NCBI GenBank assembly: GCA_017517305.1
Contig: JAFWZV010000017.1
Coordinates: 53,671 to 117,670 of the forward strand
Direction of reading: 5' to 3'
DNA length: 64,000 nucleotides
From: Lachnospiraceae bacterium
GTDB taxonomy: Bacteria > Bacillota > Clostridia > Lachnospirales > Lachnospiraceae
Each line of letters begins with the position of its first letter. The stretch's first letter is position 1. The notes below the pieces were generated by a model. The model was not told the DNA's origin and ran no database searches. It saw only the letters and a program-made list of their open reading frames with translations. The position numbers were made by a program, and so were the translations under genes. This document shows, in pieces, positions 10,111 to 13,115 of this stretch.

Positions 10111-10833
10111 ATGAGAACTGCTATTATAGCCCACCGTGGGGCTTCAAAGCTAGCGGGCACAGATAATACCATCGAAAGCTTTGAACTTGCCATCTGTCTT
10201 GGGGCTGATTATGTGGAGATGGACATTAGACAGACTAAGGATAAAAAACTGGTGGTTTTTCATGATGATATAATGGATGACACGCCTATTAAATTTCTAA
10301 CCTTTGAGGAGCTTAATAATAAGGCTTCCGAAAAAGGTTATTCGGTACCATTATTTGAAGATGTATTAAAGCTGTGCCAAGGAAAAATCAAGCTTGACAT
10401 AGAGTTAAAGGAAACCGGTTATGAATTCAAGGTTTTGTCTCTTGTGAAAAAATATTATTCCTATGATGGATTTATGATAAAATCCTTCTTAGATACTGCT
10501 GTAAAAAAGGTAGAGCTTCTAGACAAGAAAGTAAATACAGGGCTTCTTCTAGGTTACAAAAAAGCCGATGTTAAAAGACGTGTAAATGAATTCCTTCCTA
10601 GCAGAAGACTTAAGCTACTGGATGTGGATTTCGTTTCTCCAAACCATAAGCTAGTAACATGGGATTATATGCTTCGTATGAGGCTTCTCAAGAAGAAGGT
10701 TTATGTGTGGACAGTTAACGACGAAGCAATTATGAAAAAGCTTCTTAAGAAAAAAGTTGATGGAATTATAACTGATTCCCCTGACATAGCAATTTCAGTC
10801 AGGGATGCTTACTATAAAGGAAAGGGCCTCTAA
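10111..10833 (+). CDS. Glycerophosphodiester phosphodiesterase
   Basis: This 240-residue cytoplasmic TIM-barrel enzyme splits glycerophosphodiesters into glycerol-3-phosphate and an alcohol. The catalytic pattern is clear: AHRGAS at the N-terminus, GADYVEMDIRQTKD with the metal-binding Glu/Asp, and VVFHDD. There is no signal peptide. Length is typical for the short GlpQ/UgpQ type. It is preceded by GGGGAGG and followed 16 bases later by proC, so clpX, this gene and proC probably form one transcript. Confidence 0.92.
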   Translation: MRTAIIAHRGASKLAGTDNTIESFELAICLGADYVEMDIRQTKDKKLVVFHDDIMDDTPIKFLTFEELNNKASEKGYSVPLFEDVLKLCQGKIKLDIELKETGYEFKVLSLVKKYYSYDGFMIKSFLDTAVKKVELLDKKVNTGLLLGYKKADVKRRVNEFLPSRRLKLLDVDFVSPNHKLVTWDYMLRMRLLKKKVYVWTVNDEAIMKKLLKKKVDGIITDSPDIAISVRDAYYKGKGL

Positions 10834-10849
10834 GGGTTAGGGTATTTAT

Positions 10850-11650
10850 ATGAATTACAAGATTGGTTTTATAGGCTGTGGAAATATGGCTTCAGCCATT
10901 ATTCAGGGTATTATCAAGAAGACTGATATTAAGAATAATGATATTATTGTTTCTGACGCATCAGAAGTAGCTATTGCAAAGGCCGCTGATGATTTAGGTG
11001 TCAATGCTACAAGAAGCAATACCAGAGTTGTATCCGAATGCGAGGTATTATTCTTGTCAATTAAGCCTCAATTCTACGAGACTGTTCTTACAGAAATCAA
11101 GGATATTATCTCACCAGATCAAATTATAGTAACCATCGCTCCTGGAAAGACAATTGCTTGGGTAGAGTCAATCTTAGGAGATAACATTAAGCTTGTAAGA
11201 ACTATGCCTAACACACCTGCCCTCGTAGGTGAAGGTGTAACGGGAGTATGCAAGAACTCTAATGTTACTGATGCTGACTTTACATATGTTATGAGCTTAC
11301 TTTCAAGCTTTGGTATGGCTGAAGCAATACCAGAAAGCCTTATGGATGTATGTGTTTCTGTAAGTGGAAGCTCACCAGCATACGTATTCATGTTCATCGA
11401 AGCCATGGCTGACGCTGCAGTAGCAGATGGAATGCCAAGGGACAAAGCATACAAGTTCGCAGCCCAAGCAGTACTGGGAAGTGCTAAGATGGTTTTAGAA
11501 ACCGGCAAGCACCCTGGAGAGCTAAAGGATATGGTATGCTCCCCTGGTGGAACTACCATCGAGGCTGTTCGTGTCCTAGAAGAAAAAGGCTTCCGCAGTG
11601 CTGTCATCGAAGCCATGAAGGCTTGCACTGCTAAGGCTAAGGGGCTGTAA
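10850..11650 (+). CDS. proC: Pyrroline-5-carboxylate reductase
   Basis: This 266-residue NAD(P)H enzyme makes the last step of proline synthesis. The N-terminal Rossmann motif is GFIGCGNMASAI, and the C-terminal dimerisation domain carries the family signature around GKHPGELKDMVCSPGGTT. Length is normal and no residue stands out. Its TAA stop (11648-11650) forms the first bases of the outer arm of the large palindromic element that follows. Confidence 0.96.
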   Translation: MNYKIGFIGCGNMASAIIQGIIKKTDIKNNDIIVSDASEVAIAKAADDLGVNATRSNTRVVSECEVLFLSIKPQFYETVLTEIKDIISPDQIIVTIAPGKTIAWVESILGDNIKLVRTMPNTPALVGEGVTGVCKNSNVTDADFTYVMSLLSSFGMAEAIPESLMDVCVSVSGSSPAYVFMFIEAMADAAVADGMPRDKAYKFAAQAVLGSAKMVLETGKHPGELKDMVCSPGGTTIEAVRVLEEKGFRSAVIEAMKACTAKAKGL

Positions 11651-11670
11651 ATAACATTATAGGAAGTTAG

Positions 11671-12005
11671 AGCAAAAGTTTTCAGACCTGCATATACAAT
11701 TTTGTATGTGCAGGTTTTCTTATGCTCCGGTTCAAGTGATATGGGTACTTTAAAACACGCTTCGTCGTGATGATTTTTTGAATATTCGGGTAAGGTTATC
11801 TAAGACGGACGAGGGCCGCTTTCAACCGTACGTCCATGTACGTGAAAGCTACGCTGGCATCCATGCCAGCGTGCCCTCTAGTAGTCAGCCGAATATTAAA
11901 AATCTATCACTCCTACGCTATCGTTATCAAGCACCCATATCACCTGAACCTTAAGCTTTAACAAACAATGCACACACAAAATTGCATAGCAGGGAAAACT
12001 TTTGC
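11671..12005. repeat. Long hairpin arm A of the palindromic element
   Basis: AGCAAAAGTTTTC (11671-11683) pairs perfectly with 11993-12005. Pairing continues inward through 11686-11714 with 11965-11992, 11729-11749 with 11930-11950 (19 of 21) and 11767-11789 with 11890-11910. The tip is a three-way junction: GAGGGC (11811-11816) pairs with GCCCTC (11873-11878), enclosing hairpin 11818-11849 (GCTTTCA/TGAAAGC, then CGTAC/GTACG) and the perfect 10-bp hairpin 11851-11872 (ACGCTGGCAT/ATGCCAGCGT with a CC loop). Confidence 0.8.
11686..11719 (+). terminator. Possible proC terminator within arm A
   Basis: CCTGCATATACA and TGTATGTGCAGG form a local hairpin followed by TTTTCTT, which fits an intrinsic terminator for proC. 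The same bases can instead pair with 11965-11992 in the larger fold. Confidence 0.5.
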
Positions 12006-12043
12006 TATCGCCTTTGGCGATAAAGTCACTTGCCGAAGGCATT

Positions 12044-12362
12044 GAAAAGCTGACCTCTTGAGCTTGTGCTTAATTCTTAGATATGTAAGGCTTAAGTTCT
12101 GAGAGGTATTAAAGCTACGATAGCAAAGGAGCAATAGTTTTTCTTATGTCCGATTACATATAACAGCCATGGTTTGACAGGACGTCAAACCAAGCCTCAG
12201 CGGAGCCACGGATGGCGACTCTGAGGCGGTGGCGGAAGCTGTGAAAACCTTTCTCGGACATCTAGAAAAACATTGTGACGACGCGTGTAGCGTAATACCT
12301 CTCGGGCCTTAAGCCGAAAAAGCTGACCAACCTAAGCACAAGCTTAAGCTGGTCAGCTTTTC
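12044..12362. repeat. Long hairpin arm B of the palindromic element
   Basis: GAAAAGCTGACC (12044-12055) pairs with GGTCAGCTTTTC (12351-12362). The AGCTTGTGCTTA stretch, GGCTTAAG, GAGAGGTATT, GCTAC, GTTTTTCT and ATGTCCGA (12146-12153) then each find their complement in order up to TCGGACAT (12254-12261). The tip is again a junction: ACAGC (12163-12167) with GCTGT (12238-12242), enclosing GGTTTGAC/GTCAAACC (12171-12191) and GCCTCAG/CTGAGGC (12194-12227). AAAAGCTGACC (12318-12328) with GGTCAGCTTTT (12351-12361) is an alternative terminator-like hairpin. Confidence 0.8.
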
Positions 12363-12390
12363 AACTTCTTATAATGTTATTTATATGAAA

Positions 12391-12906
12391 TTATAATGCA
12401 AATGATCCTTCCTCGCCATCAGCTGTGAAGTATACCATTCCTGTCTCTGGCTGGTAATATACGTTAAGAGTCTTGATTGACTTCTTTCCACTTACCTCTA
12501 CTGCCTTAGCTACGATATCAGCTGTGTTAACCTGACCGTTAGCATACTCGATGATAACTGTCTCAGTTGCCTTCTTAGCTGGAGCTGCCTTCTTAGCAGG
12601 TGCCTTCTTAGCTGGAGCCTTAGTCTCTGCCTTCTTCTCAGCTGCCTTTGGAGCTGCTGCCTTAGTCTCTGCCTTCTTTGCAGGTGCCTTCTTAGCTGGA
12701 GCTGCCTTAGCCTCTGTCTTCTTCTCAGCTGCCTTTGGAGCCTCTGCCTTCTTCTCCTCTGTCTTCTTAGCTGGAGCTGCCTTCTTAGCAGGTGCCTTCT
12801 TAGCTGGAGCCTTAGTCTCTGCCTTCTTTGCCTCTGCTTCCTTAGCTGCCTTAGCTGCCTCTACCTTAGCCATAGTTGAATCAACTGTTGCCTTCTTAAC
12901 TGCCAT
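12391..12906 (-). CDS. Lys/Ala/Pro-rich histone-H1-like protein (DUF6465-like C-terminus)
   Basis: The ATG at 12906 has GGAGG 9 bases upstream; the frame extends further but without a site. The product is 171 residues. Residues about 10-115 are low-complexity repeats of the AKKAPAKKA type interspersed with Glu-rich blocks, resembling eukaryotic H1 tails and bacterial HctB/AlgP-type DNA-binding tails. Residues about 116-171 form a small folded domain (VIIEYANGQVNTADIV ... YQPETGMVYFTADG), which resembles the Lachnospiraceae family I know as DUF6465. A role in nucleoid packing is an inference from charge only. Repeat number is likely variable between strains. Confidence 0.8.
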   Translation of the reverse strand: MAVKKATVDSTMAKVEAAKAAKEAEAKKAETKAPAKKAPAKKAAPAKKTEEKKAEAPKAAEKKTEAKAAPAKKAPAKKAETKAAAPKAAEKKAETKAPAKKAPAKKAAPAKKATETVIIEYANGQVNTADIVAKAVEVSGKKSIKTLNVYYQPETGMVYFTADGEEGSFAL

Positions 12907-13115
12907 TGTTACTACCTCCATAAAAGTATTATAATATTCTATATGTTCACCAATGATGTCTGTTTCTTTTTCGCTAGGATTGATAATACCCCTTTTTTCT
13001 AGGTTTTGCAAGGTTTTTCGACATTTTCTTAAGTATTTACCAATGGATTTTGATAAAGTTCAAAAAAAAAATACATTTTGCACAAAGATTTTTTTGTCTT
13101 TGCGCAAAATGTATT

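Follow-up and report, generated by a model that had tools for sequence, protein, structure and literature searches.

The 736-bp element at positions 11648-12383 of the window (the whole 64,000-nt stretch of Lachnospiraceae DNA analysed here) is bounded by a terminal inverted repeat and contains two TwoAYGGAY RNA modules (RF01731) in divergent orientation, each of which closes a long arm; close to either end there is also an intrinsic terminator that faces inward. We favour the view, with confidence that is evenly balanced, that it acts as a dispersed terminator in both directions, and that RNA reading through it, from whichever side, carries one putative dual-site CsrA ligand. The element fills the space between the 3' ends of two convergent genes: the left gene, labelled proC in a preliminary description of the sequence, ends in a TAA stop codon whose TA opens the element, and the right neighbour is a Lys/Ala-rich ORF on the minus strand (12391-13011). 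The interval 11648-12383 contains no ORF of 60 aa or more.

Strong structure in this interval, claimed in the preliminary description, is real: the minimum free energy (MFE) is -338.9 kcal/mol for the plus strand (z -18.7) and -337.7 kcal/mol for the minus strand (z -29.1), with 0 of 20 shuffles as low in either case. The outer helix and both long hairpins described there are present at the positions given. The two halves of the outer helix, which form the terminal inverted repeat, are 11648-11668 and 12363-12383, with 95% of their 21 pairs formed; the left half starts with the TA inside the stop codon and the right half ends with TA. Arm A (11671-12005, closed by 11671-11683/11994-12006) folds better as the minus strand (-165.3 versus -137.2 kcal/mol), and arm B (12042-12364, closed by 12042-12055/12351-12364) folds better as the plus strand (-155.5 versus -137.2 kcal/mol, with 12044-12362 tested). 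All arms of the proposed five-way junction exist, but the plus-strand fold is predicted to be four-way, because the prediction joins the two small hairpins (12006-12022 and 12031-12041) into a single central one (12010-12040; 11 bp, -17.2 kcal/mol, 76% of the ensemble), for which 87.9% of cells pair in the six-copy alignment described below. In the minus-strand MFE structure, a local hairpin (12317-12362) replaces the base of arm B. The terminator facing the left, plus-strand gene lies at 11685-11722 (a 32-nt hairpin at 11685-11716 with the tail UUCUUA; -20.7 kcal/mol), and that facing the right, minus-strand gene lies at 12314-12357 (hairpin 12357-12322 with the tail UUUUUCGG).

An Rfam search matched both arm tips to TwoAYGGAY over the full length of the model (positions 1-168 of 168), at 11757-11920 on the minus strand in arm A (83.6 bits) and at 12121-12286 on the plus strand in arm B (102.6 bits); these scores are about twice the gathering cut-off of 43 bits. 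TwoAYGGAY was described in 2010 as a structured RNA and its function has been listed as unknown since (PMC2864571). Each arm has two loops with AYGGAY or a close variant: AUGGAU and AUGGAC in arm A (GGA at plus coordinates 11860-11862 and 11833-11835, read on the minus strand), and ACGGAU and the variant ACAGGAC in arm B (GGA at 12180-12182, ACAGGACGU, and 12210-12212, CCACGGAUGG). The arms are thus members of a known family rather than of an unrecognised RNA class, as had been suggested, and cmscan found no match to OLE/ROOL/GOLLD-type large-RNA families in 10800-13100 (E<=1). The preliminary description had correctly seen that G-U-compatible changes favour opposite strands in the two arms; this is because the TwoAYGGAY of arm B is on the plus strand and that of arm A on the minus strand, the favoured strand in each arm being that of its Rfam match. 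It follows from the opposite orientations that no single transcript has both modules in sense, and on this ground a single giant RNA was rejected. We therefore consider it very improbable that the element is one large ornate RNA of about 736 nt in the manner of OLE, ROOL or GOLLD; the long-range outer helix does covary (10 of 20 pairs), but most TwoAYGGAY copies elsewhere are single (close pairs account for 40 of 119 motifs), the promoter search was negative, and the outer repeat is absent from several copies. What has held up is the broader claim of a non-coding, structured, covarying element that exceeds two terminators.

To assess covariation over the whole element, we aligned six copies from different sites (the window, four from the congener G164 and one from G160), with pairing taken from the fold of the window's copy. 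Of the 1560 alignment cells, 88.1% pair, a figure favoured by the fold having come from one of the six aligned sequences. Both sides have changed in 87 of 266 pairs, compared with a shuffle mean of 30.3 (0 of 500 shuffles as high) and 13-33 in slid-partner controls, although gene conversion or quasipalindrome correction in inverted repeats can also produce double changes. In the outer helix, 96.3% of cells are paired and 10 of 20 pairs have changed on both sides. The TwoAYGGAY cores are the best-conserved part: an alignment of 49 sequences has invariant GGA-G columns and covarying stems, with RNAalifold recovering only the first hairpin (8 pairs) because MAFFT misaligns the second.

The element and its RNA family are dispersed. 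The window's own genome (G000) has three TwoAYGGAY motifs, and on its contig C9 a trimmed copy of the element lies behind another gene and has no TwoAYGGAY motif. The third motif in this genome (L012/L097, G000:C15, about 76147-76315) is single, lies downstream of a transketolase-like ORF, and is enclosed by the inverted repeat ATGATTGCTTAC with terminator-like hairpins. Element DNA was matched in a subset, 10 of 37 genomes, of the window's Lachnospiraceae genus (E<=0.001), with long copies at many unrelated sites in G164; searches of phages and plasmids gave no match at E<=1e-5. TwoAYGGAY itself occurs in 21 of the 150 genomes of a family-wide sample, and full scoring gave 32 motifs in G122, 31 in G086, 20 in G004, 16 in G164, 10 in G160 and 7 in G008. 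The terminal inverted repeat is found in the window's copy and nine others looked at, and is absent in L071, L074, L084, L085 and L087. TA is present at both repeat ends in nine of the ten copies (three of the ten having been found with a pattern that starts with TA). The TA-ended foldback repeat that the preliminary description had raised as evidence against its own reading is therefore sound, and the element is also found at unrelated sites.

At the window's own site, where flanks were matched in 36 of 37 congeners, 30 loci were fetched, and both flanks are present in 21: three are occupied, 16 have gaps of 32-232 bp, and two have gaps of about 1.36 kb. The occupied loci are those of the window, G164 (461 bp) and G154 (208 bp, with a flipped interior and without a TwoAYGGAY match); in G157, the contig ends inside a variant copy of the element at this site. 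Fifteen of the 16 short gaps have a hairpin with a U-tract, at -8 kcal/mol or better, in both directions. At two other sites, occupied in G164 (L071) and G160 (L084), the window's genome has a simple terminator, as judged by eye. Hence the element takes up positions that hold a terminator in related genomes, and its presence varies from species to species. The comparison of this gap in relatives that had been suggested thus gave both presence and absence, but a terminator fills the element-free sites and none is cleanly empty; relatives have a terminator instead of the element and not one interrupted by it, so these sites do not yield a clean TA duplication. The copy in G154 (L113/L102, G154:C108), which lies in the same gene gap as the window's, has kept its repeat ends, but the part within them is shorter and reversed in orientation, which gives the impression of an inversion between the terminal repeats.

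The main rival to our reading is that the element is selfish, MITE-like foldback DNA, in which the hairpins matter as DNA only, TwoAYGGAY is a mobile unit rather than an RNA gene, and the arms stay complementary through gene conversion between them or through quasipalindrome correction. Such an origin would account for a terminal repeat that, in nine of ten copies, has TA on both sides, for the dispersed copies with neither an ORF nor a detectable promoter signal, and for the shortened, flipped copy in G154. Indeed, of the features that the preliminary description had associated with foldback DNA, scattered copies and TA flanks are found; lack of covariation is not. Strand preference argues in the other direction. 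Among 85 TwoAYGGAY motifs with a reported strand, the sense strand folds better in 71, and in 36 of 41 genomes; this set, which we also used for GGA loops, terminators and (as 83 regions) promoters, leaves out L027, which coincides with L094, as well as L030-L034, for which no strand was reported, and L073, L077 and L083. The legs outside the Rfam core favour the sense strand in 15 of 18 arms in the genus, but the bias fails in other genera (four of 14), and the pooled figure is 19 of 32 (p=0.10). We suggest that the strand bias, taken as a whole, argues for RNA over selfish foldback DNA. In addition, DNA mobility does not predict CsrA-like loops or co-occurrence with CsrA (see below). For these reasons we regard selfish foldback DNA as a serious alternative that is nonetheless rather unlikely. 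A genus-wide search for matching end patterns found no autonomous partner, which is a weak negative given that the genomes are drafts. One 4.4-kb candidate in G174 was rejected as a coincidence of pattern, being hsdS coding sequence around an integrase-like ORF; at this locus (L184, G174:C12:67267-71627), inverted-repeat hsdS-like genes flank the integrase-like ORF, resembling an invertible type I restriction specificity locus.

The arrangement of modules and terminators is regular. All 20 close TwoAYGGAY pairs (<2 kb) among 119 motifs in seven genomes are divergent, minus-then-plus, with gaps of 148-490 nt within the pairs (199-226 nt in the window's genus); in the family sample, outside this set, two tandem (++) neighbours lie 1.5-1.7 kb apart, in G022 and G060. 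Because of the minus-then-plus order, transcription from either side crosses the antisense copy first and the sense copy second. Ten of 15 pairs, those of the window's genus and G008, lie between convergent genes, and five (G086, G037) lie between co-directional genes; single motifs are between divergent genes in only three of 50 classifiable cases. The nine paired elements of the genus have 18 ends, of which 16 contain an inward intrinsic terminator; a 17th lies just outside the repeat of L070 (2384-2411; the repeat ends at 2374), and none of the 20 ends tested has an outward one; this terminator test covered 15 pairs first, with L188 added afterwards. Inward terminators are not general, being found for nine of 54 motifs in other genera. 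Terminators downstream of TwoAYGGAY in the sense direction are rare (8/85 overall: 0/16 paired and 5/15 single motifs in the genus, and 3/54 elsewhere). Upstream of TwoAYGGAY, 83 regions score no better for promoter signal than shuffles or controls, and the 200-nt centre of the element, considered as a location for promoters of its own, has no enrichment. The element could be merely an elaborate bidirectional transcription terminator in which the TwoAYGGAY cores are inert passengers, as is suggested by its replacing a plain terminator at the window's site, from the inward terminators at 16 of 18 ends, and from the end hairpins that the trimmed copies L102 and L098 retain. We think this improbable, since a terminator has no need of the cores, which are the part best conserved across 49 sequences, in their GGA-G columns and covarying stems.

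Several observations connect these cores to CsrA. Across the 49 aligned sequences, the first loop is conserved at C61 (48 sequences), A62 (48), G64 (43), G65 (48), A66 (47) and G68 (48), and the second at G95 (44), G96 (49), A97 (49) and G99 (49), giving a loop consensus of CA(N)GGA(U/C)G. For CsrA, SELEX gave the consensus RUACARGGAUGU, the GGA of which lies in a hairpin loop (PMC4347634). The TwoAYGGAY loops match this consensus and, from their sequence, look like CsrA binding sites; that TwoAYGGAY binds CsrA had been suggested in 2014, without validation in that report (PMC4333381). At least two GGA hairpin loops are predicted in 69 of 85 motifs, compared with one of 85 reverse complements and eight of 255 shuffles, a count that is not independent since the covariance model itself favours such loops; the other 16 motifs have fewer than two. 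The median spacing between loop GGAs is 29 nt (27-54, n=70). Of the 150 genomes in the family sample, 80 have a CsrA match over the cut-off, and these include all 21 genomes with TwoAYGGAY (hypergeometric 4.5e-7, kinship ignored). In a class-wide sample, the corresponding numbers are 104 of 293 genomes and 27 of 29 (Fisher 1.3e-11, kinship ignored), or 17 of 18 TwoAYGGAY genomes when only over-cut-off matches are counted; the two TwoAYGGAY-positive genomes of this sample with no CsrA match, G339 and G461, are multi-contig drafts that have congeners with CsrA in the sample. CsrA travels with flagellar genes, and we have counted this against the co-occurrence as evidence for a CsrA ligand. The csrA gene of the window's genome encodes 71 aa and adjoins an ORF resembling fliW, FliW being a protein partner of CsrA; the encoded protein retains Leu4 and Arg44, which are presumably RNA-contact residues.

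We also observed a separate, roughly 80-bp palindromic repeat whose tip, GCTGACACTTAAAACGGTCAGC, is conserved, at 2356-2436 of the window (stem to about 2338-2455) and, for example, at G000:C2:18281 (L237) and G157:C11:121526 (L240), where Rfam gave no match at E<=0.1. It is often inside terminator stems. Matches number at least 25 in G000, at least 25 in G160, at least 24 in G154 and at least 24 in G157, these being lower bounds with about 24 candidates scored per genome; there are seven in G164 and none in 32 other congeners. Stems differ complementarily between copies (alignment A3, in which two of 22 rows did not align). Two copies lie directly downstream of csrA in the window's genome (L204 2132-2209 and 2263-2339; G000:C11), the first inside a terminator-like stem; neither has an Rfam match at E<=1.

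Under our preferred reading, a two-way terminator with a CsrA ligand in its read-through RNA, the transcript of either neighbouring gene would meet a terminator at its edge of the element. RNA that reads through would include first the antisense arm and next the sense arm, such that either strand would give exactly one sense TwoAYGGAY, whose two GGA hairpin loops, spaced by about 30 nt, would be available to a CsrA dimer. The read-through TwoAYGGAY might act as a CsrA ligand or decoy, or might put the 3' end of the mRNA under CsrA control. The family's dispersal may have been that of a non-autonomous, TA-ended element of MITE type, copies of which would then have been retained or trimmed as terminators. 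More speculatively, we propose a dispersed class of "CsrA-decoy terminators", in which convergent transcripts that escape termination become dual-site CsrA ligands, such that global read-through would titrate CsrA in flagellated Clostridia; this wider proposal is tentative. We found no experimentally shown CsrA-sequestering RNA in flagellated Clostridia in the literature searched.

The TwoAYGGAY family and its proposed CsrA link were already known; our search of the open-licence literature found no earlier report of a head-to-head foldback that has inward terminators, or of the restriction to csrA-bearing genomes. The arrangement gives TwoAYGGAY a genomic setting of 3' gaps, divergent pairs and terminators, and shows that a structured RNA family can be carried inside a foldback repeat which stands in for terminators. 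Its near-complete restriction to csrA-bearing genomes in two samples makes the published CsrA guess directly testable, and raises the question of whether, besides FliW, CsrA in Clostridia has RNA ligands in tens of dispersed copies per genome.

The element shares features with several known systems. As in TwoAYGGAY as described, both arm tips have two GGA hairpin loops and a covarying stem; what differs is that a single foldback, with a terminal repeat and inward terminators, unites two copies head-to-head. RUP of Streptococcus pneumoniae and the Correia/NEMIS repeats of Neisseria are gene-free, dispersed elements with short terminal repeats, TA ends and stem-loop folds (PMC2229807). The window's element has terminal repeats, TA ends, dispersal and a stem-loop fold, and no gene, in common with them, but it is three to seven times longer, it carries a conserved RNA family, and no insertion-sequence partner was found for it in the draft congener genomes. 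With bidirectional intrinsic terminators it shares the convergent gap and a hairpin with a U-tract facing each gene, but its two inward terminators are separate, about 600 nt apart, around two RNA modules. Lastly, TwoAYGGAY resembles the CsrB, CsrC, RsmY and RsmZ sRNAs in having GGA in hairpin loops and in having paired sites; it differs from them in that no promoter or sense-direction terminator was detected for the TwoAYGGAY pairs of the genus, in having only two sites per RNA, and in being dispersed, with 7-32 copies per genome in six genomes.
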